From NCBI RefSeq assembly GCF_003008425.1, contig NZ_PXOQ01000006.1, forward strand, positions 62,001 through 126,000: a DNA stretch of 64,000 nt, read 5' to 3'. The translations under genes and the position numbers were made by a program. Below the pieces are notes generated by a model, which had not been told where the DNA came from, made no database searches, and worked only from the letters and a program-made list of their open reading frames with translations. Shown here in pieces: positions 571 through 62,693 of the stretch; position 1 is the stretch's first letter; every line of letters starts with the position of its first letter. The stretch is from Aurantibacter aestuarii (GTDB taxonomy: Bacteria; Bacteroidota; Bacteroidia; Flavobacteriales; Flavobacteriaceae).

Positions 571-643
571 GTCATCCTGAACTTGTTTCAGGATCTCATT
601 AAACTTTTCTTAAATTTCCTAAGGTTCCGAAACAAGTTCGGAA
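571..643. repeat. Two small palindromes between etfB and etfA
   Basis: Stem ATCCTGAA with loop CTTGT and the matching right arm lies at 574-594, and stem TTCCGAA with loop ACAAG at 625-643. Both arms pair perfectly in each. They belong to the same type as three palindromes at 48701-48869: the loop stays CTTGT or its complement while the stems differ in a compensated way. They sit in the transcribed gap of the etfBA operon. Function is unknown. Confidence 0.75.
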
Positions 644-42980: not shown

Positions 42981-43102
42981 GTCATTTCGAAGAGTAGAGA
43001 ATCGTTAAATCAGCGGAATAAATCACATAAAACATATAAAAACAGGATCTCAATAAAGCTTTTAAGAGCAACGAATGTGATGTCTCAATACTTCGACATG
43101 AC
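42981..43102. repeat. Inverted-repeat element without a gene
   Basis: GTCATTTCGAAG at the left (42981-43003) and the complement-strand GTCATGTCGAAG at the right (43079-43102) form imperfect inverted arms of about 24 bases, enclosing about 75 bp of non-coding sequence. The arms belong to the same family as those around the GIY-YIG gene next door. Confidence 0.65.
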
Positions 43103-43120
43103 TATAAAACTATATTGGTT

Positions 43121-43535
43121 GTCATTTCGACGTTAGGAGAAATCGCACAAGTATATTAATTTTAAATAATTTCATTATTTAGTGTTTCCCATTTCGGATT
43201 GAAATTACTAATTAATAAGTTCTTCTTTTCTCTGCGCCATTTTTTTAATTGTTTTTCTCTGTATATAGCATCTTTAGGATAATTAAAGCCTTCATAATAT
43301 ATTAAATAGATACAATTATATTTACCTGCGAACGATTTTTTGGCATTGTTACTGTCAAAATAATGTTGAGCTAATCTGTTTTGAATATTATTTGTAACTC
43401 CAATATATAGCGTTGTTCTGTATTCATTAGTGACGATGTAGACAAAATAATTATAAAGCATAACTTAGATTTTATGTTAATATAGTTACTTGTACAAAAA
43501 TCAAATAATGTGATGTCTCCATACGTCGACATGAC
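43121..43535. mobile_element. Putative GIY-YIG cassette bounded by 24-bp inverted repeats
   Basis: The left arm 43121-43144 (GTCATTTCGACG...) and the complement of the right arm 43512-43535 (GTCATGTCGACG...) match at 20 of 24 positions. The small GIY-YIG gene sits between them with 17 and 50 bp of spacer. No target-site duplication is evident. Mobility is an inference from structure. Confidence 0.5.
43162..43461 (-). CDS. Small GIY-YIG nuclease domain protein (A)
   Basis: The 99-residue protein is a single GIY-YIG domain of the UvrC/Slx1 N-terminal type: FVYIVTN and LYIGVTNNIQNRLAQH (Tyr and Arg of the catalytic site), then AIYREKQLKKWRREKK with the metal-binding Glu. There is no DNA-binding domain beyond the basic helix. 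The natural substrate of these stand-alone proteins is unknown. It is enclosed by inverted repeats, and a different GIY-YIG gene lies at 46257. It is not related to the kynurenine genes around it. Confidence 0.9.
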   Translation of the reverse strand: MLYNYFVYIVTNEYRTTLYIGVTNNIQNRLAQHYFDSNNAKKSFAGKYNCIYLIYYEGFNYPKDAIYREKQLKKWRREKKNLLISNFNPKWETLNNEII

Positions 43536-43563: not shown

Positions 43564-44649
43564 TTACCCCAAAATTCTTTTCACTAATTTATCTTTAGCA
43601 GCTTGGTCATCGCCACATAACCATTGAATAACGTTGTCTTCCCAAATAGCATCACGCTCCACTTTAGTAATAATAGAACGGTCTATAGCTAAATCTAAAA
43701 TTTTACCAGGATAAGAAGCTTGTTTTTCACTTTCCATTTCACCTAAAGGATAAGGATCATCTAAGCCCATAAGGACTTGCTTAGAACCTTGATTTTTAAT
43801 TAAAAGCTGTAAACCACCAGTGTCATGCACTAAGGTGTCAAAAAAGATGTTTTTATGTCCTACGGCTTTTCTAGGGTGACTTTTGCCTTCAAATAAATCG
43901 GGTCTACCATCAAAACCTTGAATACGACGTCCTAAATTTATTTGTGCTAATTGTCCACCATGCGCAAAACAAGTTCGCATATTTGGATATTTATCTTGAT
44001 AACCATTTAAAGTTAAAAAATGATAGGCATCTGCACATTGTGCCAACATCCAAATTAAATGAAAACGCCAAGAAGTGTTTTCTAATTTTATAAATTTCTC
44101 ACCATCGTATGGGTGAATTTCTACTGCTAAATTGTACTTGTTAGCCAATTCAAAAATAGGCTCATTTTCTTCATCAAAAATACATCGCCACGTTCCAATA
44201 GTATCCATGTAATGTGTTGGCAGGCATAATAATTGCATACCTAATTCTTCAACACAACGTTCAATTTCCCAACAAGCACCGCGTACAAAACCCGGATGCA
44301 CCACAAAACCAGTTGTAAATTTACTAGGGTTTTCACGTTGTACTTTTGCGTTAAAATCGTTTTGAAAACGTAAAGCTTGCTTCATTTCTTCCACACGTAA
44401 ACCGTTTCCGTATAACTGAGACAGGTTTAAAACCACCGCATGGTCAATTTTAAAACGCTCCATCCACGCTAACTTTTCATCTAAAAAAAACGACGAATCT
44501 GTAATAGGTCGATTCCAGTCCTTTTGTAACATGTATTTTCGGTCTTTATCAACCCAAAAAATACCTTTATCTTTCATAAACTGAGGGATTTCCTCAGGAT
44601 AAGGTAATAAGTGCGAATGTCCGTTTATTCTTAGTTTACGTTTTTCCAT
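43564..44649 (-). CDS. 2-amino-3-carboxymuconate-6-semialdehyde decarboxylase
   Basis: The 361-residue amidohydrolase fits the ACMSD family: metal-binding HSH in INGHSHLLPYPEE, EIHPYDG, TCFAHGGQL and the Asp in GLDDPYPLGEME. It removes CO2 from ACMS made by the adjacent dioxygenase, directing carbon to 2-aminomuconate rather than to quinolinate and NAD. It is the most downstream kynurenine gene here, 36 bp after the dioxygenase gene on the minus strand. Confidence 0.9.
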   Translation of the reverse strand: MEKRKLRINGHSHLLPYPEEIPQFMKDKGIFWVDKDRKYMLQKDWNRPITDSSFFLDEKLAWMERFKIDHAVVLNLSQLYGNGLRVEEMKQALRFQNDFNAKVQRENPSKFTTGFVVHPGFVRGACWEIERCVEELGMQLLCLPTHYMDTIGTWRCIFDEENEPIFELANKYNLAVEIHPYDGEKFIKLENTSWRFHLIWMLAQCADAYHFLTLNGYQDKYPNMRTCFAHGGQLAQINLGRRIQGFDGRPDLFEGKSHPRKAVGHKNIFFDTLVHDTGGLQLLIKNQGSKQVLMGLDDPYPLGEMESEKQASYPGKILDLAIDRSIITKVERDAIWEDNVIQWLCGDDQAAKDKLVKRILG

Positions 44650-44685
44650 AAGATGTTTAAAACTATTTTAATTTTTGCCTACTGC

Positions 44686-45219
44686 CTAATCAATCTTTAC
44701 TTTATTTGGTGCTTCCATAACATCTCCGCAGTTAGGGCAGGTACGTTTTAGTTGATCACCATAATATTTATCAAAAATTATAGGCATGTCGGTTTCAATA
44801 TTTTTTACTGTAAAATCTTCTTCATACAATTTAGTAGTACAAGATTCGCAAAACCAAAGTAGGGCATCACGCATTCCTTCAGGTCTCTGGTATTCTATAA
44901 CCAAACCAACCGTATTAGCGCCTCGTTGTGGAGAATGTGGTACTTTAGAAGGCAGTAAATAAATATCACCTTCCTTAATATGCACGTCTTTTGGCACACC
45001 ATTATCAATAATTTTAAGCACAATATCGCCTTCAACCTGATAGAAAAATTCTGGCGTTTCATTATAGTGATAATCCTTACGGTTATTTGGTCCGCCAACT
45101 ACCATAACTATAAATTCTCCGTCTTTCCAAACCACTTTATTTCCAACTGGCGGTTTTAAAAGATGACGATTTTCCTCAATCCAGGCTTTAAAATTTAAAG
45201 GAGATACTAAATTACTCAT
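44686..45219 (-). CDS. 3-hydroxyanthranilate 3,4-dioxygenase
   Basis: The 177-residue cupin has the Fe site in NETPEFFYQVEGD and KVPHSPQRGAN. The C-terminal rubredoxin-like second Fe site, CESC and CPNC, is typical of bacterial enzymes of this kind. It opens the ring of 3-hydroxyanthranilate to ACMS. The ACMSD gene follows directly. A long imperfect hairpin lies upstream between it and the SDR gene (45232-45320). Confidence 0.94.
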   Translation of the reverse strand: MSNLVSPLNFKAWIEENRHLLKPPVGNKVVWKDGEFIVMVVGGPNNRKDYHYNETPEFFYQVEGDIVLKIIDNGVPKDVHIKEGDIYLLPSKVPHSPQRGANTVGLVIEYQRPEGMRDALLWFCESCTTKLYEEDFTVKNIETDMPIIFDKYYGDQLKRTCPNCGDVMEAPNKVKID

Positions 45220-45231
45220 AGTTTCATATTT

Positions 45232-45320
45232 TGGGCGTTACCCTAAAGGGTCAGGCTTTCGCAACTCGCTTTTTTAGGTGCAACCTTTCGACTCCGCTCA
45301 AGGTGACGCCTAAAAAGAGC
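45232..45320. repeat. Composite palindromic repeat between dioxygenase and SDR genes
   Basis: GCGTTACCC/GGGTCAGGC form a first small hairpin near 45235-45257. A second, larger imperfect stem pairs about 45268-45287 with 45300-45320 (about 17 of 21 positions), with CGACTCCGCT in the loop. The GACTCCGCTC core is the complement of the GAGCGCAGTC core at 46241. It may act as an mRNA processing or attenuation site. Confidence 0.6.
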
Positions 45321-45436
45321 TTAAACAATTGCTCAATCCTTAACGCAAATTCTTCAATTCAATAAAATTAGCAATAATAAATTAATTAATTACTGCTCAT
45401 AACAATAGTTTAAAACACTTATTTTAAAAGATAAGA

Positions 45437-46219
45437 TTATAAACTTTTGGTTCTTCCACCATCAACTGGAAGATTTATACCATTTATGTACGCTGCTTTT
45501 CCACTCGCTAAAAATGTAATGGCTGCAGCTAATTCTTCAGGCTTAGCAAAACGCTTTGCAGGAACTGCATTTTTCATAGCGTTGCTGGCTTCATCTTCTG
45601 TTACTCTAGTTTTAGCCGATTTATTTTTAATAATTTCTGTTAAACGCTCTGTTCCTGTAGCTCCAGGAAGTATATTGTTTACTGTAATTCCGAATTGGCC
45701 CAGCTCGTTAGCTAAAGTTTTACTCCAATTAGCTACAGCGCCACGAATAGTATTACTTACTCCAAGTCCGTCTAAAGGTTGCTTCACCGATGTTGAAATG
45801 ACGTTAACAATTCTACCGTATTTCTCTTCTTTCATAAACGGAACAACCGCTTGAGCCAATACGTGATTACATTTTAAATGTTGGGTAAATGCACTTTCAA
45901 ATTCATCTACTTCAGCTGCAAATACAGGTCCGCCTTTTGGTCCGCCAGTATTATTTACCAACACATGAAATCCGTGATTGTTAGCTATAAATTCAGAAAC
46001 CTTGGTTTTTAATTCCGAAGGATTAGAAAAATCTGCCACAATATAATCATGATTTCTATGCTGAGGTAACTCGGCTAAAGTCGCTTTTAATTTGTCTTCG
46101 TTTCTTGCAATAAGGGTTACAATAGCGCCTTCTTCGGCTAAAGCTATTGCAGTTGCTTTTCCAATTCCTGCTGTACTACCGCAAACTAATGCGTGTTTAT
46201 TGTTTAAGTCTAAGTTCAT
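45437..46219 (-). CDS. Atypical short-chain dehydrogenase/reductase-like protein
   Basis: The start is set at 46219 (MNLDLNNKHALVCGSTAGIG, 260 residues). An earlier start at 46264 would translate the palindromic repeat at 46233-46258. The Rossmann motif GSTAGIG and NNTGG are intact. Where classic SDRs have Tyr-x3-Lys this one has Ser155-NTI-Arg159, so the usual catalytic pair is missing, as in the divergent BKR-like SDR subgroup. It lies among kynurenine genes and may act on a muconate intermediate. That role is inferred only from position. Confidence 0.82.
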   Translation of the reverse strand: MNLDLNNKHALVCGSTAGIGKATAIALAEEGAIVTLIARNEDKLKATLAELPQHRNHDYIVADFSNPSELKTKVSEFIANNHGFHVLVNNTGGPKGGPVFAAEVDEFESAFTQHLKCNHVLAQAVVPFMKEEKYGRIVNVISTSVKQPLDGLGVSNTIRGAVANWSKTLANELGQFGITVNNILPGATGTERLTEIIKNKSAKTRVTEDEASNAMKNAVPAKRFAKPEELAAAITFLASGKAAYINGINLPVDGGRTKSL

Positions 46220-46232
46220 AATTTTTATTTTT

Positions 46233-46258
46233 GTCAGGTCGAGCGCAGTCGAGACCTC
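46233..46258. repeat. Palindromic repeat at the end of GIY-YIG gene B
   Basis: AGGTCGAGCGCAG and the facing GTCGAGACCT form an imperfect palindrome. The last codon and stop of the GIY-YIG gene (TGA, complement of 46257-46259) overlap it. The same GAGCGCAGTCGAGACCT core recurs at about 50479-50495. Confidence 0.75.
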
Positions 46259-46577
46259 AATCATTTTCTGGTTTATATTTAGAGTGAGTTACATTTCTAC
46301 ATTCTGATAAAATTTGTAATAAATCAAAATTCCCATTTGCTAATGCATATTTCTTTTTAGCACTCCATTTTTTTATTTTCTTTTCAAAATATATTGCTTG
46401 TTCTACGCTGTTAAACTCTTGTTGAAATATTAATTCTAAAGGTCTTCTTTTGTATGTAAAACAGGTTTTATTTAATCCGTTTTGGTGTTCTTCAAATCGT
46501 CTAATTATGTTATTTGTTATTCCAGTATAAGTTAACCCGTCTGAACATTTCAAAATGTAAACATAATACGTTTTCAT
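46257..46577 (-). CDS. Small GIY-YIG nuclease domain protein (B)
   Basis: The 106-residue protein has YYVYILKCSDGLTYTGITNN (GIY-YIG motif with Thr in the second half: YTG), Arg in NIIRRFEEH and Glu in AIYFEKKIKKWSAKKK. The sequence is distinct from protein A at 43162 but has the same single-domain layout. Its stop lies in one palindromic repeat, and its start codon touches a 79-bp repeat (46578-46656). It splits the kynurenine operon between the SDR and aldehyde dehydrogenase genes, so it looks like an insertion. Confidence 0.9.
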   Translation of the reverse strand: MKTYYVYILKCSDGLTYTGITNNIIRRFEEHQNGLNKTCFTYKRRPLELIFQQEFNSVEQAIYFEKKIKKWSAKKKYALANGNFDLLQILSECRNVTHSKYKPEND

Positions 46578-46656
46578 AATTAACCTCTCGTTAAGCTGCG
46601 CTTGCTATCTTCAATTCAAATATATTTGAATTTCAATAATGCTCGAGGAGACATTT
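46578..46656. repeat. 79-bp intergenic repeat, copy 1
   Basis: It starts AATTAACCTCTCGTTAAGC and ends CTCGAGGAGACATTT. A perfect 20-bp palindrome AATTCAAATATATTTGAATT sits in the middle. It lies between the aldehyde dehydrogenase stop and the GIY-YIG B start, touching the start codon. It differs from copy 2 at one position. Confidence 0.92.
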
Positions 46657-46663
46657 CGTTACT

Positions 46664-48103
46664 TTAATACTTTATACACACATTTTTAGGCTCAGTAAAA
46701 AAGCGTAAAGCTTCAAAACCACCTTCACGACCAACACCAGATGCTTTTACGCCACCAAAAGGTGTTCTTAAATCGCGCATCATCCAAGTGTTTACCCAAA
46801 CAATACCTGCTTGTAATTGGTTACTCATTTGCATGGTTCTGGTTAGGTTGTTAGTCCATAAGGTTGCCGATAATCCGTATTTTACTTTGTTTGTCATGTC
46901 TAAAACTTCGGCTTCAGTCTCAAAAGGCATAATCGTTACCACAGGTCCAAAAATCTCTTCTTGGTTGACGCGGCAATCATCAGTTGGGACTTCTATAACT
47001 GTAGGTTCTAAATAGTAGCCATTTTCAAAACCTTCAACTAAGATCTCGTTTCCTCCACAAAGAATTTTTCCGCCTTCATCTTTAGCTATTTGTATGTATT
47101 CTTTTACTTTTTCTAGGTGTGGTTTAGAAACCAAAGCGCCAATATTTGTGTCTTTTTTAGATGGATGACCAACATTTAAAGCTTTTACTTTTGCTACAAA
47201 ATCGGTTTTAAATTTTTCGTAAATCGAGGCTTCCACAAAAATTCGGCTTCCGCATAAACAAATCTGACCTTGATTAGCAAACGACGAACGTACTGTGGTT
47301 TCTAACATATCATCATAATTACAATCTGCAAAAATGATGTTTGGGTTTTTTCCGCCTAATTCTAAAGATAACTTTTTAAACATAGGCGCTGCCACACGTG
47401 CAATGTGTGCTCCAGTTGCTGTTCCACCAGTAAAACTAATGGCTTTGATGTCTTCATGTTCTATAATGGCTTGTCCTGTTGTGGTTCCTAAACCATGCAC
47501 AATATTTAAAACACCTTTTGGTAAGCCAGCTTCGTTGCAAATTTCGCCTAATAAATAAGCAGTCATTGGTGTGACTTCGCTTGGTTTTGCTACTACACAA
47601 TTTCCTGCTGCTAACGCAGGTGCAATTTTCCAGGTAAATAAATACAAAGGTAAATTCCATGGTGAAATACAACCTACTACACCAATAGATTGACGTAAGG
47701 TGTAATTTATAGCGTCTTGACCAACGCTTTCGTGACTTTCGCTTGCAAATTGCGTAATAGCATTACCAAAAAACCTAAAATTACTTGCCGAACGCGGAAT
47801 ATCTACAGCTTTGGCTAAGCTAATGGGTTTTCCGTTGTCTTTGCTTTCAGCTTCTGCTAAACGCTCTAAATTGGCTTCTATTAATTCTGAAATTTTTATA
47901 AGGATACGGCTGCGTTCTTCTAAAGTAGTTTTTGACCACTGCTTAAAAGCAGATTTAGCAGAACAATAGGCTAGCTCAACGTCTTCTCTAGAGGAATTAG
48001 GAATTTGACTATAAATCATGCCATCACTTGGGTTGTAATTGTCTATCCAAGTGTTATTTACTGGATTTTTAAATTCGCCGTTTATGTAGTTTTTTATGTT
48101 CAT
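46664..48103 (-). CDS. Aldehyde dehydrogenase, probable 2-aminomuconate-6-semialdehyde dehydrogenase
   Basis: The start is taken at 48103 (MNIKNYINGEFKNP, 479 residues). An ATG 24 bases upstream (48127) is also in frame but adds atypical residues. The NAD-dependent ALDH core has Glu in KLSLELGGKNPN and the catalytic Cys in FANQGQICLCGSRIF, plus the C-terminal TPFGGVKASGVGREGG. Family and context fit oxidation of 2-aminomuconate semialdehyde, the product of ACMSD, to 2-aminomuconate. It is flanked on both sides by copies of the 79-bp repeat. Confidence 0.88.
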   Translation of the reverse strand: MNIKNYINGEFKNPVNNTWIDNYNPSDGMIYSQIPNSSREDVELAYCSAKSAFKQWSKTTLEERSRILIKISELIEANLERLAEAESKDNGKPISLAKAVDIPRSASNFRFFGNAITQFASESHESVGQDAINYTLRQSIGVVGCISPWNLPLYLFTWKIAPALAAGNCVVAKPSEVTPMTAYLLGEICNEAGLPKGVLNIVHGLGTTTGQAIIEHEDIKAISFTGGTATGAHIARVAAPMFKKLSLELGGKNPNIIFADCNYDDMLETTVRSSFANQGQICLCGSRIFVEASIYEKFKTDFVAKVKALNVGHPSKKDTNIGALVSKPHLEKVKEYIQIAKDEGGKILCGGNEILVEGFENGYYLEPTVIEVPTDDCRVNQEEIFGPVVTIMPFETEAEVLDMTNKVKYGLSATLWTNNLTRTMQMSNQLQAGIVWVNTWMMRDLRTPFGGVKASGVGREGGFEALRFFTEPKNVCIKY

Positions 48104-48146
48104 TTCATTAACAGATTTTAGAACCAAGAATAGAATTAAGACTTTA

Positions 48147-48225
48147 AATTAACCTCTCGTTAAGCTGCGCTTGCTATTTTCAATTCAAATATATTTGAAT
48201 TTCAATAATGCTCGAGGAGACATTT
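48147..48225. repeat. 79-bp intergenic repeat, copy 2
   Basis: It is identical to copy 1 except for one base (CTATTTTC for CTATCTTC). It lies between the RidA-family stop and the aldehyde dehydrogenase start, 44 bp upstream of the 48103 start on the minus strand. Confidence 0.92.
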
Positions 48226-48260
48226 TCATTGGTACATTTTCAAATTAGCTAATTGCTAAA

Positions 48261-48668
48261 TTATTTTACCGGTTTGTACGCCATCACCTTAATCTCAATC
48301 ACTAAATCTGGATGAGGTAATTGGTGAACTGCAACGGTTGTACGTGTTGGTCCGGTTTCTTTTTCGAAAAACTCGCCATAGGCTTTGTTGTAATCTGCAA
48401 AGTCATTCATGTTTACTAAAAAAGAGGTGACATCGACCACATCTTTTAACGTTGCGCCAACTTTAGCAAGGTTGCGCTCAATGTTTTTTAGCACTTCCTG
48501 TGTTTGAACATAAGCATCTAACTTTTTGGTGTTCATATCGTCAATTAATTCAACGCCTGCAATGGTGTTGTCTGGTCGTCTAGAACTTGTTCCTGATACA
48601 AATATGAAATCGCCCACTTGTTTTACGTGTGGATATGCGCCTCTTGGTGTTACTATTTTTTCTGCCAT
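48261..48668 (-). CDS. RidA family protein, probable 2-aminomuconate deaminase
   Basis: The 135-residue protein has the RidA/YjgF fold and the conserved Arg in [28 protein letters not shown]. One branch of the family deaminates 2-aminomuconate in tryptophan and nitrobenzoate breakdown. Its position next to the 2-aminomuconate-semialdehyde dehydrogenase supports that reaction here rather than the general 2-aminoacrylate deaminase. The substrate assignment is inferred from context. Confidence 0.87.
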
Positions 48669-49025
48669 AATCTTGTTCTTATGATTTTTTATTTTATGTG
48701 ATGCTGAAACAAGTTCAGCATGACGTTTGTATAATTGACTATTCTGTATTTAGATTAATCAGAATTCACTTCAAAGACTTTTTATTTTACTCTTATTATG
48801 CGATGCTGAAATAGATTCAGCATGACAATGATATTATTTCACATGGTAAATCTGAACTTGTTTCAGATTCTCATCAATTTTTCCTTTAAACTTTAATCAT
48901 AATACTTCTCGATACATTTTAATTTTCCGCTATCGCTTCAATTTAAAACACTCGAAGTGACAAAAACGTAATTGTTACATTGTCAAATTTTCACATTGTT
49001 AAATTAATCCAATTGTTACATTAAT
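48669..49025. repeat. Repeat-filled gap between the RidA gene and kmo
   Basis: This 357-bp gap has no gene. It holds three palindromes: stem ATGCTGAA with loop ACAAG at 48701-48721, stem ATGCTGAA with loop ATAGA at 48803-48823, and stem AATCTGAA with loop CTTGT at 48849-48869. Near 48915-48965 there is a looser repeat with CGCTATCGCTTC and CTCGAAGTGAC. The stems vary while pairing is kept. No strong promoter or terminator for the flanking genes is evident. Confidence 0.8.
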
Positions 49026-50462
49026 TTAGTGATGCATGGTTTTTGCCACATTATCATCATCTAATATATTATTGGTTTCATTTTTCACTTTATCTAAAAG
49101 TGTTTTTAAATAGGTTTGATCTTCTAAATTTGTTGCAGTAATGTCATTATCTGCTAACATATTTAGAATAGCTTTGTCTTGCGCTCTACCACGTAACATG
49201 GCTTCCCTGTAGCCAATGTGCTCATTAAAAGTCACTAAGCTATATTTAGAGGAATACTCTTCTGGAAAGGCTTTTTCAAGAGCCATTTCAATTTTTCGTT
49301 TTTCCTGAAATATAGCCTGACCAACATGATCTTTCATTTCGTGAAAGTTGTCTATGGCTAAATCGGCAATAGCATCGGTATCTTTTTTACGGGTTTTAGA
49401 ATAGGTTTTAAAAATAGTTTCCCAACCCGATTTGTCTAGTTTTAAATCTTTGTGTTGATGTAAAATAGCATCAAATTCTACAACATCTTCAAAAGAAGCA
49501 TTCATACCTTGTCCGTAAAAAGGCACAATTGCATGAGCTGAATCGCCCATAAGTAAGGTATTTCCTTTAAAATTCCATGGGGAACATTTTACGGTTCCTA
49601 ATGGTGCTGTTGGATTTTCGAAAAAGTCTTCAACTAAATTAGGCATTAGTTCTAACGCATCTGGGAATTCTTTTTTAAAGAACTCGGTGACCATTTCCGG
49701 TGTCGTTAAATTGTTAAAGTTATATTCGCCTTCATCATAACTTAAAAATAGAGTTACCGTAAAACTACCATCTAAATTTGGTAATGCAATCACCATAAAA
49801 TCGCCTCTTGGCCAAATATGTAATGCATTTTTAAAAGTTTTATAGTCACCAGTTTCTGAAGGAAGAATACTTAACTCCTTATAGCCATGCGTTAAATAGT
49901 TTTGCGAATAGCTAAATAGAAATTTTTTACCTAAATAATAGCTTTTACGTAAAGCAGATCCTGCGCCATCTGTAGCAATTATAATATCTGCATCTTCTAC
50001 AAATTCTTCTTTTGTATTGTAATCTTGAAAATGGGCTGTGGTATTTTCAAAGTTTACCGACTTACATTTTTTATTAAAATGAATGGTGACGTTTTCTAAA
50101 GCTTCAGCTTCATCTAAAAGCAAGGCATTTAATCCGCCACGAGAAATAGAGTTAATGTATTCATGATCTCGACCGCTATAATTGGACATAAAGGTATTGC
50201 CTTCTTTATCATGAATCATTCGCCCATTCATAGGAATACAAAGTGCTTTTACTTTATCTTCTATGCCTACCAGTTTCATGGCTTTATTACCGCGATCTGA
50301 AAACGCTAAGTTAATAGAGCGACCAGCAGAAATATCTGTTTTTCTAAGATCTGGACGCATTTCGTAAACGGTAACATTGTAGCCGCGTTGTCCCATGCGA
50401 AGCGCTAATAAGCTTCCGCAAAGTCCTGCGCCAATAATTAGTATGTTTTGTTTGTTCTCCAT
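49026..50462 (-). CDS. kmo: Kynurenine 3-monooxygenase
   Basis: The 478-residue FAD enzyme begins NILIIGAGLCGSLLALRMGQRGY (dinucleotide-binding GxGxxG) with EMRPDLR as the ribose contact. The mid-region has LLMGDSAHAIVPFYGQGMNASFED (second FAD motif). It hydroxylates kynurenine to 3-hydroxykynurenine using NADPH and O2. The family ends in hydrophobic residues in eukaryotes; this one ends in a hydrophilic tail, so it should be soluble. Downstream of kynU on the minus strand, separated by a small unknown gene. Confidence 0.95.
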   Translation of the reverse strand: MENKQNILIIGAGLCGSLLALRMGQRGYNVTVYEMRPDLRKTDISAGRSINLAFSDRGNKAMKLVGIEDKVKALCIPMNGRMIHDKEGNTFMSNYSGRDHEYINSISRGGLNALLLDEAEALENVTIHFNKKCKSVNFENTTAHFQDYNTKEEFVEDADIIIATDGAGSALRKSYYLGKKFLFSYSQNYLTHGYKELSILPSETGDYKTFKNALHIWPRGDFMVIALPNLDGSFTVTLFLSYDEGEYNFNNLTTPEMVTEFFKKEFPDALELMPNLVEDFFENPTAPLGTVKCSPWNFKGNTLLMGDSAHAIVPFYGQGMNASFEDVVEFDAILHQHKDLKLDKSGWETIFKTYSKTRKKDTDAIADLAIDNFHEMKDHVGQAIFQEKRKIEMALEKAFPEEYSSKYSLVTFNEHIGYREAMLRGRAQDKAILNMLADNDITATNLEDQTYLKTLLDKVKNETNNILDDDNVAKTMHH

Positions 50463-50475
50463 TTTTATGTTGTTT

Positions 50476-50496
50476 GTTCGAGCGCAGTCGAGACCT
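50476..50496. repeat. GAGCGCAGTCGAGACC repeat upstream of kmo
   Basis: GTTCGAGCGCAGTCGAGACCT starts about 14 bases before the kmo start. The same core occurs at 46239-46257. Confidence 0.7.
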
Positions 50497-50527
50497 GTTT
50501 TAATATCAAAAATTGTTCTTCACTATA

Positions 50528-50603
50528 AACCTCTCGTTAAGCTGCGATTGCTATCTTCAATTCAAATATATTTGAATTTCAATAATGCTCGAGGAGACAT
50601 TTT
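50528..50603. repeat. 79-bp intergenic repeat, copy 3 (76 bp)
   Basis: It runs from AACCTCTCGTTAAGC to CTCGAGGAGACATTT with one base changed against copy 1 (GCGATTG for GCGCTTG) and the first three bases missing. It lies between the small gene at 50626 and kmo, again upstream of a minus-strand gene. Confidence 0.92.
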
Positions 50604-50625
50604 AGTTCTATATTATAAAGGAACT

Positions 50626-50970
50626 TTAGTTTTTTAACTTCTGTTTTAAATATTGATAATCATCATAATCTAATTTTAATTGAGTTAATGACATTTTTTG
50701 AAGATTAGAATTTACATCTTGAAAAGTTACTATATCACTCTTTGAATTAAATTCAATTTTAGAAAAATCTGAATACTCTTGATTAAATTTTAGTTCGTCT
50801 TTTATAATAAGTAGGACTTTTTTTTCTGTAATTAGAAAGAAATCATGTCCTCTTTCCATAAATAAACTTAACCATCCAAATAATTGGTATTGCCAAAAAC
50901 CAATATCGCTTTTAGTCTTTATTTTAACTAAAATTTCTTCATCTTTAATTATTTTGTAATATGGGTTCAA
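50626..50970 (-). CDS. Small protein of unknown function in the kynurenine operon
   Basis: The 114-residue protein has no signal peptide. The pattern (IIKDEEILVKIKT, FFLITEKKVLLIIKDE, IEFNSKSDIVTFQD, a final helix DYDDYQYLKQKLK) resembles a bacterial PH-like domain: seven strands and a C-terminal helix. That is inferred by eye. It starts 5 bases after the kynU stop and precedes a 79-bp repeat and kmo, so it is probably co-transcribed. No catalytic motif is visible. Confidence 0.55.
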   Translation of the reverse strand: MNPYYKIIKDEEILVKIKTKSDIGFWQYQLFGWLSLFMERGHDFFLITEKKVLLIIKDELKFNQEYSDFSKIEFNSKSDIVTFQDVNSNLQKMSLTQLKLDYDDYQYLKQKLKN

Positions 50971-50975
50971 AATTT

Positions 50976-52241
50976 TTATAAGATATTTTTTAATTTCTCT
51001 ACCATATTATACACATCTTGAAAAGAATTGTATAATGGTACAGGAGCACAACGAATGACATCTGGTTCGCGCCAATCTGTAATTACACCAGCTTGGGTTA
51101 ATTTATCGTGTAAACTTCTGTCGGCATTTTTAACTTGAATAGATAATTGGCAACCGCGTTCTTTTGGATGACTTGGTGTTATAATTTTAATATCGGAATT
51201 ATTTAAACCATTTATTAAAAATTCAAAGTAATTGGTTAACTCTTTAGATTTTTCAAGCATGTTATTAAACCCAGCTTCTTTTACCACATCTAAAGACGCT
51301 CTAATTGCTGCCATAGATAAAATGGGCGGATTACTTAATTGCCAACCTTCGGCACCAGGTAATTGGTCGAATTCATCACGCATTCTAAAACGTGTTTGTT
51401 TGTTATGACTCCACCAACCTGTAAATCGGTTTAAGTCTTTATTATTAGCGTGACGCTCGTGCACAAATGCACCAGACAAACTTCCTGGTCCAGAATTTAA
51501 GTATTTGTAAGTACACCACACTGCAAAATCGGCTCCAGAATTGTGTAAATCTAAGTTGACATTTCCTGCGCCATGCGCACAATCGAAACCAACCATGCAG
51601 CCATGTTGGTGGCCTAGATTTGTAATTCGTTTTAGGTCGAAAAATTGACCAGTGTAGTAATTTACGCCGCCAATCATTACTAAAGCAATTTCATTGCCAT
51701 GCTCGTTTAGAATGTGTTCTAAATCCTCATAATTGGCTAATTCTTCACCTTTTCTCGCTTTCCACAGTATTAAACCTTCTTTATCGTCATAACCATGGTG
51801 GCGTAATTGCGATTCTACCGCATACTTATCGCTTGGAAACGCATCGGCTTCTATTAAAATTTTATAACGTTTAGGGGTTGGTTGGTAAAAACTAACCATC
51901 ATAAAATGAAGGTTTGCCGTAAGGGAATTCATAACAACCACTTCCTTGTTTTTAGCACCAACAATGTCCGCCATAGTTTCGGTTAAAAACTCGTGATAAT
52001 GTAACCACGGATTTTTACCTTCGGTATGACCTTCGACACCTAAACGTGCCCAATCATCTAATTCTTGATCTATGTAACTTTTAGTGTTTTTAGGTTGAAG
52101 CCCTAAAGAATTTCCGCAGAAATAAATTAAATCGTTTCCGTTTTTATCTTTTGGGATATGAAATTGACTTCTAAAGTGAGCTAAAGTGTCGTTTTGGTCT
52201 AAATGTTTAGCGTATTCTAGACCAGATTTGTATGTCGTCAC
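50976..52241 (-). CDS. kynU: Kynureninase
   Basis: The 421-residue PLP enzyme has FCGNSLGLQPKNT near the N-terminus, GFDCAHGAGNVNLDLHNSG and the PLP-lysine segment AVWCTYKYLNSGPGSLSGAF. It cleaves 3-hydroxykynurenine to 3-hydroxyanthranilate and alanine. Length is normal. It is the first kynurenine gene on the minus strand. The upstream 120 bp include the terminator of the DUF6503 gene, so a promoter should lie near 52242-52300. Confidence 0.95.
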   Translation of the reverse strand: MTTYKSGLEYAKHLDQNDTLAHFRSQFHIPKDKNGNDLIYFCGNSLGLQPKNTKSYIDQELDDWARLGVEGHTEGKNPWLHYHEFLTETMADIVGAKNKEVVVMNSLTANLHFMMVSFYQPTPKRYKILIEADAFPSDKYAVESQLRHHGYDDKEGLILWKARKGEELANYEDLEHILNEHGNEIALVMIGGVNYYTGQFFDLKRITNLGHQHGCMVGFDCAHGAGNVNLDLHNSGADFAVWCTYKYLNSGPGSLSGAFVHERHANNKDLNRFTGWWSHNKQTRFRMRDEFDQLPGAEGWQLSNPPILSMAAIRASLDVVKEAGFNNMLEKSKELTNYFEFLINGLNNSDIKIITPSHPKERGCQLSIQVKNADRSLHDKLTQAGVITDWREPDVIRCAPVPLYNSFQDVYNMVEKLKNIL

Positions 52242-61694: not shown

Positions 61695-62693
61695 CTATTT
61701 TTTTGAATTGAGCAAATGGATTAAGTCTATTATACGGCTGGAATAAGCCGATTCATTATCATACCATCCAATAATTTTAACCATATTACCAATAACAGAT
61801 GTCATTTGTGAATCAAAAATACAAGAGTGTTTATTACCAACAATATCTATAGATACAATTGGATCTTCTGTATATTCCAGTATGCCTTTAAAATTTTGTT
61901 GAGAAGCTTTTTTGAAGGCCTCATTTATTGTTTCTATACTAACTTCTTTTTTAACATTAAAAGTAATATCGGTTAAAGAGCCATTTGCTACAGGAACTCT
62001 TATACCACAGCCTCCAATGACATCATTTAAATCTGGGAAAATTTTAGTTAAAGCTTTAGCAGCTCCTGTTGTTGTAGGAACAATACTTTGTCCTGCAGCA
62101 CGAGCACGTCGTAAATCGCGATGCGGTTGGTCGTGTAAACTTTGGTCTGTAGTGTAGGAGTGAACCGTTGTAATATAAGCTTGATTAATCCCGCATAACT
62201 CATTTATTATTGAAATCATAGGAGCAGCATTGTTAGTCGTACAAGAAGCATTAGAAATAATTTCTTCTGTGCCACTAATTATAGTGTCATTTACTCCAAG
62301 AACAATTGTTTTTATGCTGTCATCTTCTGCAGGAACACTTAAGATAACTTGTTTAGCTCCATTTTTTATATGAAAATTTAAATCTTCTTTTGTCTTGAAT
62401 TTTCCAGTCGCTTCAATGACAAAATCTGGATTATAAGTAGACCAGTCTATGTTTTTTGGGTGGTTCTGTTGAAGTAAATCGATAGAATTTCCATTAACTA
62501 TAAGTTGGTTATGAGTATGACTTATATCTCCTTTAAAAACACCATGAATACTATCGTATTTAAATAGGTGACATAATGTTTTGGTATCAGCCAAATCATT
62601 TATAGCAAGGACTTTGATGTTTTGATGATCTTGAAGTAGTCTTAAAACTCGTCTGCCAATACGTCCAAAACCATTTATAGCAACGGTAATCAT
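61695..62693 (-). CDS. gap: Glyceraldehyde-3-phosphate dehydrogenase
   Basis: The 332-residue protein has the Rossmann start VAINGFGRIGRRVLRLL, catalytic Cys in SNASCTTNNAAPM, and WYDNESAYSSRIIDLI at the C-terminus. It starts 1 base after the lipA stop. Position after lipA suggests co-transcription. A second gap gene may exist elsewhere in the genome, as is common in this group. Whether this copy works in glycolysis or gluconeogenesis cannot be seen from sequence. Confidence 0.94.
   Translation of the reverse strand: MITVAINGFGRIGRRVLRLLQDHQNIKVLAINDLADTKTLCHLFKYDSIHGVFKGDISHTHNQLIVNGNSIDLLQQNHPKNIDWSTYNPDFVIEATGKFKTKEDLNFHIKNGAKQVILSVPAEDDSIKTIVLGVNDTIISGTEEIISNASCTTNNAAPMISIINELCGINQAYITTVHSYTTDQSLHDQPHRDLRRARAAGQSIVPTTTGAAKALTKIFPDLNDVIGGCGIRVPVANGSLTDITFNVKKEVSIETINEAFKKASQQNFKGILEYTEDPIVSIDIVGNKHSCIFDSQMTSVIGNMVKIIGWYDNESAYSSRIIDLIHLLNSKK

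Follow-up and report, generated by a model that had tools for sequence, protein, structure and literature searches.

A GIY-YIG nuclease gene between GTC-tagged hairpin repeats in Aurantibacter aestuarii: probable gene-bearing form of a REPIN-like mobile unit

Background

Can a small nuclease gene and the repeats that enclose it form a mobile unit although no transposase is encoded between them? This question is raised by a 415-bp segment of Aurantibacter aestuarii (Flavobacteriaceae; RefSeq assembly GCF_003008425.1, contig NZ_PXOQ01000006.1), located at positions 43121-43535 of the window, that is, the whole stretch of 64,000 nt analysed here (contig positions 62,001 to 126,000). An original prediction, made from the letters alone, had described the segment as a GIY-YIG gene of 99 residues between 24-bp inverted repeats, a candidate mobile cassette whose nuclease might recognise the repeats and spread them in the way of RAYT proteins and REP elements.

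Hairpin repeats tagged with CGTC or TGTC were defined as a REP superfamily by Di Nocera et al. in 2013 (PMC3733652). The superfamily was found in Bacteroidetes and Proteobacteria, includes RPE-4 and RPE-6 of Rickettsia, and has Neisseria members that were equated with dRS3 (PMC3733652). Its repeats possess an unpaired CGTC (or TGTC/CCTC) tag, a stem of 8-9 bp that starts with AT, and a tail that is mostly CCA; transposase genes flanked by them were sought, none was found, and the repeats were said to "apparently lack a dedicated transposase" (PMC3733652).

Organization of the gene-bearing element

The element comprises the following features.

43121-43535: gene-bearing element of 415 bp, a GIY-YIG gene within a head-to-head pair of TGTC-tagged hairpin repeats
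43121-43148, plus strand: left REP, GTCATTTCGACGTTAGGAGAAATCGCAC, tag GTC, stem ATTTC/GAAAT
43508-43535, minus strand: right REP, GTCATGTCGACGTATGGAGACATCACAT, tag GTC, stem ATGTC/GACAT, compensatory to the left arm
43162-43461, minus strand: GIY-YIG nuclease gene, 99 aa, single domain, intact ORF (PF01541, E=5.7e-16)

The gene was thus as predicted, and so were the arms, 43121-43144 (GTCATTTCGACGTTAGGAGAAATC) and 43535-43512 on the minus strand (GTCATGTCGACGTATGGAGACATC), which were correct in coordinates and sequence and identical at 20 of 24 positions. Taken alone, this match is within chance for an AT-rich stretch, since the best 24-bp inverted match in 60 dinucleotide-type shuffles of a 750-bp AT-rich stretch had a mean of 17.5 and a maximum of 20; the single-locus match was therefore left out as proof. 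Two of the four differences, T to G at position 6 and A to C at position 21, form one base pair of a hairpin (ATTTC..GAAAT versus ATGTC..GACAT), and this compensatory change gave the first hint of structured repeats. TTGTCAT reads inward from both ends of the element, with the tag left unpaired as in CGTC REPs. Folding energies of single window arms were weak (z between -0.3 and 0.6); a whole gene-less dimer folded well (z -4.4). No transposase was present within 43121-43535, as had been stated, and the GIY-YIG protein was the sole protein encoded there.

Residues Y8, Y19, G21, R29, H33, and E69 were invariant in 23 homologues of the 99-aa protein. Its AlphaFold2 model (pLDDT 92.8) showed a bare GIY-YIG fold, and a fold search with this model returned UPF0213 (1zg2) as the best match followed by SLX1, both with modest scores. 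For the nuclease, dN was about 0.2 with dS saturated, and the closest pair gave 0.04 versus 1.28, which indicates purifying selection on the protein. Small, made of a single GIY-YIG domain, and with its catalytic residues intact, it has the build of an Ssn-type nuclease (see below).

Other repeats and nucleases in the window and genome

Further repeats and a second nuclease gene were found in the window.

42981-43102: 122-bp element without a gene, from the same repeat family, with arms at 42981-43003 (plus strand) and 43079-43102 (minus strand)
46257-46577, minus strand: GIY-YIG nuclease gene, subfamily B, KCSD type, 106 aa, 2.8 kb from the first gene
46233-46255, minus strand: REP downstream of this second gene, minus-strand sequence GTCTCGACTGCGCTCGACCTGAC
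46584-46652, minus strand: long-loop REP of 69 bp, upstream of the second gene
48153-48221, minus strand: the 69-bp long-loop REP again, near-identical, in unrelated flanks
50530-50598, minus strand: the same 69-bp REP a third time, near-identical, in unrelated flanks
571-596 (plus strand), 48698-48724, 48800-48826, and 50472-50494 (all minus strand): single REPs of other families

The gene-less element directly adjoins the gene-bearing one, and the second nuclease gene is enclosed by an arm pair differing from that of the first. Pattern searches of the 2.9-Mb genome found few copies of the window-arm repeat family (family A), about 11 in all; the arm 12-mer GTCATKTCGAMG had six exact matches, four of them at the locus of these two elements. 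Gene-less copies lie on other contigs at C4:556749-556835 (87 bp) and about C4:497591-497679, and a gene-less hybrid of this family and another lies at C4:437900. Two other families were dispersed, namely the GTCATGCTGAATTTATTTCAGCATCAC family with 13 copies (control 0), many of which surround another GIY-YIG gene at C6:521048, and the GTCTCGACTGCGCTCGACCWGAC family with 21 copies (control 0), one of them just downstream of the 46257-46577 gene. Head-to-head dimers are scattered in the genome, as is the case for CGTC REPs.

Association of gene and repeats across bacteria

The association was assessed at 80 GIY-YIG loci from public genomes of Bacteroidota, Verrucomicrobiota, Proteobacteria, Clostridia, and Cyanobacteria, where the two 250-bp flanks of the gene were compared and their highest-scoring inverted match was taken as the arms (score of at least 14). 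Inverted arms were present at 52 of 79 GIY-YIG loci versus 8 of 812 shifted control positions on the same contigs. With the tag left open, GTC ranked first of the 64 trinucleotides before a hairpin, and a GTC-tagged hairpin occurred on both sides of the gene at 24 of 78 loci versus 3 of 806 controls. The common form of the repeat was GTC-ATNNY-GA-N(5-8)-GA-RNNAT-C, with stems varied but complementary. Among 48 arms picked by their upstream-downstream match alone, without a hairpin criterion, 31 had GTC followed at once by a fully paired 5-bp stem, compared with 0.98 expected from shuffles; a hairpin search with 6-bp stems after the tag gave little signal, and 5 bp was taken as the working length. 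GA was opposed to GA inside the stem in 57 of 72 arms, the usual arrangement being the 5-bp stem with 0-2 inner pairs, while continuous longer stems were seen in loci L002, L038, and L040. As in the definition of CGTC REPs, the stem begins with complementary AT; the tail is mostly CT or CA instead of CCA.

Ten more homologue loci, taken from plasmid-collection records of which some are chromosome-sized, mostly had arms when read by eye, and none was seen by eye at the Rhizobium K1/93 homologue (L168). The homologue of Neisseria gonorrhoeae (L164, 40% identical) sits amid GTCATTCCCGCGCAGGCGGGAATC-type repeats. An armless gene at a constant syntenic position, named beforehand as a finding that would speak against a cassette, was not seen as a rule, although about one third of the GIY-YIG loci had no clear arms by the measures used. 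Judged by sequence comparison, the association of the gene with outward-facing repeats is established beyond reasonable doubt.

Correspondence between repeat sequence and nuclease

Arm similarity followed protein similarity (Mantel r=0.27; r=0.22 for different genera only; p=0.0002). On the protein tree, stem type changed 24 times versus 33.6 after shuffling (minimum 28 of 300 shuffles), and with one row per genus 20 changes were counted versus 25.1, a number as low being obtained in 1 of 300 shuffles. ATTTC stems were found in all of the nearest scored relatives of the window nuclease, i.e., in Allomuricauda, Tenacibaculum, Salinimicrobium, and genome G008. The clearest case was genome G014, where four GIY-YIG genes had four different repeats in flanks read by eye; in G008, four GIY-YIG genes sharing 34-50% identity likewise had differing flanking repeats by eye. 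These comparisons show repeats that are evidently matched to the nuclease subfamily, each repeat type going with its own enzyme as in RAYT/REPtron systems and each enzyme being tied to a specific repeated sequence as in Ssn-type nucleases. They strongly imply that the window nuclease recognises its own repeat sequence.

Co-occurrence in related genomes

A homologue of the nuclease was present in 32 of 60 relatives. In these, the general REP pattern gave 275 matches versus 97 for the control pattern, and in the 28 relatives without a homologue it gave 69 versus 76 (Mann-Whitney p=1.7e-5 for genomes with versus without a homologue, phylogeny and genome size being ignored). The sister species (G001) had neither a homologue nor any repeat match, with 2 matches in the control. 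Arms and gene, whose co-occurrence the original prediction had proposed to check, were found together in 13 of 14 repeat-rich relatives, and the comparison of genomes shows that those with an excess of repeats nearly always hold the gene as well. The exception, G017, had 19 REP pattern matches versus 2 in the control; in its fragmented assembly of about 220 contigs no small GIY-YIG protein was found, only longer ones, e.g., of UvrC size. Arms common without gene linkage had been named as the other adverse finding: gene-less copies do exist, but nearly always in genomes that hold the gene, G017 excepted. The idea of an arm-recognising nuclease thus gained support on two sides, as the arm sequence tracks the protein and, with the same exception, no excess of repeats over background was seen in genomes without a homologue.

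Site occupancy and movement

The region 43564-52241 on the minus strand is an operon for kynurenine/3-hydroxyanthranilate degradation, with genes for kynureninase, KMO, a deaminase, ALDH, SDR, 3-HAO, and ACMSD. In the window and in related genomes, this operon has been invaded repeatedly by REP elements. Empty sites in relatives, which were to be looked for, were found: several relatives lack any insert at the two window junctions, and in further relatives these junctions are taken up by other repeats or genes. The ACMSD-OMT junction, which holds both 42981-43102 and 43121-43535 in the window, has a spacer of 0 bp in nine relatives, TAA being followed at once by ATG; other relatives have there one repeat, or dimers without a gene, belonging to other families, and L059 has a decayed B-type GIY-YIG gene. 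At the ALDH-SDR junction, the gene found in the window at 46257-46577 is also present in G192, G006, and G115 (frameshifted), gene-less dimers are present in G030 and G162, and unrelated genes in several relatives; the junction is bare in G062 and G109, among others. Comparison of the junctions shows that occupancy differs between relatives in both gene and repeats.

At the same ALDH-SDR junction, G092 (L213) carries a 98-aa ORF between the arm pair that forms a gene-less dimer in G030. A search for the family of this ORF gave no convincing match, and it is possibly another cargo of REP arms.

In Sphingobium, the gap between fnrL and a regulator gene contains the nuclease gene in 4 of 8 aligned loci (frameshifted in TYG73), and in TYG64 and TYG74 (L175-L176, plasmids) it contains one fused repeat whose left half comes from one arm and whose right half comes from the other; in TYG64 it reads CGTCACCCCGGG|TCAAGCCCGGGGTGACG. 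From its sequence, this repeat looks like an excision scar. Sites in Shinella are present or absent in sequences too diverged for the ends to be placed.

The most telling sign of movement is the trio of 69-bp long-loop repeats (46584, 48153, and 50530), which are 97-100% identical, lie on the same strand with unrelated flanks, each occupy a separate gap of the kynurenine operon, and occur nowhere else in the genome; they show that one repeat was copied recently within the window. A similar local same-strand trio was observed in G203 (C4:393838, 395292, and 399337).

No target-site duplication was seen at the ACMSD-OMT, ALDH-SDR, Sphingobium, or 69-bp-copy sites, whose ends are too diverged for a firm test, and no clean young insertion was resolved among the sites compared. 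Taken together, the gene-less copies, the vacant sites, and the near-identical repeats in new positions indicate that the units move. The mobile cassette originally suspected is in this way supported by vacant junctions and gene-less dimers as well as by the arm-gene association across phyla.

Interpretation and alternative explanations

These findings suggest that 43121-43535 is probably a REPIN-like mobile unit with a matched nuclease, namely the form of a GTC-tagged REP dimer that carries the gene, and the gene-less dimers are proposed to be its non-autonomous form. We infer that the nuclease cleaves the arms, with a preference for single-stranded DNA, and contributes to their spread. Two head-to-head hairpin repeats, with a TGTC tag and the stem ATNNY..RNNAT, would enclose the nuclease that recognises them; they would fold as hairpins once the DNA is single-stranded, and the GIY-YIG enzyme would nick at the GTC tag or close to it. 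Replication or repair might then copy or join the strand thus freed or nicked into a further intergenic site, in many cases one close by.

The foremost alternative, unlikely but deserving of weight, is that the protein is a host-useful single-strand nuclease of the Ssn type which tunes DNA uptake or recombination, the repeats being kept as targets and their spread being incidental. The Ssn nuclease of Neisseria meningitidis is reported to cleave single-stranded DNA at a repeated sequence and to modulate natural transformation. The low dN relative to saturated dS would fit such a role, and the N. gonorrhoeae homologue lies amid repeats that were equated with dRS3 (PMC3733652). However, the patchy distribution of the gene (in 32 of 60 relatives), its position inside its own repeats, the vacant sites, and the decayed copies in L026, L043, L044, L059, and G115 give a selfish look. 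A host role and a selfish element do not exclude each other.

A homing-type passenger, in which REP dimers spread otherwise and GIY-YIG genes invade them by cutting the repeats, appears rather improbable. GIY-YIG enzymes do include homing endonucleases, the same junctions are gene-less in some relatives and gene-bearing in others, and the arms in G092 enclose a different ORF of 98 aa; yet repeats stay at background where no homologue was found, which is unexpected if they spread alone. Homing endonucleases are recognised by an intron, an intein, or a conserved target gene together with a DNA-binding domain, whereas the present nuclease is intergenic, is not inserted in a conserved gene, and has a single domain with no separate DNA-binding part.

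MITEs typically have terminal inverted repeats and occur as short forms without a gene, and both are present here. Nevertheless, it is very improbable that the unit is an ordinary insertion-sequence MITE on which a DDE or HUH transposase acts in trans and which carries the GIY-YIG gene as cargo, in view of the arm sequence that tracks the GIY-YIG protein, the failure to see a target-site duplication among the diverged ends at the junctions compared, and the report of no transposase genes between CGTC repeats (PMC3733652). Terminator-like hairpins placed by coincidence around an ordinary housekeeping gene, a reading that the chance-level arm match of the window alone would allow, are scarcely credible and were refuted by the arm association (52 of 79 versus 8 of 812), the GTC tag test, and the co-occurrence among relatives.

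With the mobile REP unit as the preferred reading, small GIY-YIG nucleases are the best candidate for the enzyme behind the movement or upkeep of a bacterial repeat class that is very common. A broader proposal, on which our judgement is evenly divided, is that they are the missing mobilisers of the whole CGTC/GTC REP superfamily, including Neisseria dRS3 and the GTCATTCC.. and GTCATTGCGAG.. repeats, independently of HUH enzymes and with one nuclease per repeat sequence. If true, this would be a second, HUH-independent system of REP spreading, would explain the purpose or multiplication of dRS3 and similar repeats, and would provide a rule by which the DNA targets of many small GIY-YIG nucleases are predicted from the adjoining repeats. 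CGTC repeats occur in many bacterial phyla and were enzyme-less in the 2013 report (PMC3733652), and the pairing makes the question directly testable.

Comparison with known systems

The window repeats resemble CGTC REPs in tag, AT-start stem, head-to-head dimers, and intergenic place. They differ in that CGTC REPs have 8-9 continuous pairs and a CCA tail, whereas most arms here have 5 bp, GA/GA, and 0-2 pairs with CT or CA, and in that CGTC REPs were described without a dedicated transposase, whereas each repeat type here goes with a GIY-YIG nuclease.

A GIY-YIG family of site-specific nucleases, Ssn, is reported to have been described in Nature Communications in 2025 as enzymes that, in Neisseria and beyond, cleave single-stranded DNA at repeated sequences, the stress reportedly being on cleavage chemistry and transformation. 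Its members are reportedly small, single-domain, and widespread, with a separate repeated target for each, and in this they are like the nucleases described here; the N. gonorrhoeae homologue amid dRS3-type repeats adds to the likeness. The nuclease-repeat pairing is thus probably already published in the Ssn work, in which case what is new here is the identity of the repeats as CGTC REPs, the anatomy of the gene-bearing and gene-less mobile units, the co-occurrence, and the movement with its vacant sites. Literature searches on GIY-YIG combined with REP-like repeats gave nothing.

UPF0213 and SLX1 (PDB 1zg2 and 7cq2) have the GIY-YIG fold in common with the 99-aa nuclease; SLX1 is larger and has SLX4 as its partner, and neither is known to be tied to flanking repeats. 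The homing endonuclease I-TevI shares the catalytic domain, but the 99-aa nuclease is free-standing, intergenic, without a DNA-binding domain, and placed between hairpin repeats.

The original analogy with RAYT proteins and REP elements stands as a functional likeness, an enzyme matched to repeats, and not as a kinship of enzymes, no HUH/Y1 transposase being involved. RAYT/REPtron/REPIN systems, as the element described here, have an enzyme gene flanked by matched hairpin repeats together with dispersed gene-less dimers; where they possess an HUH/Y1 tyrosine transposase and a GTAG tag, the window element has neither and possesses a GIY-YIG nuclease and a GTC tag. It appears to be a REPtron-like unit in which a GIY-YIG nuclease replaces the RAYT transposase and would drive the spread of its repeats.
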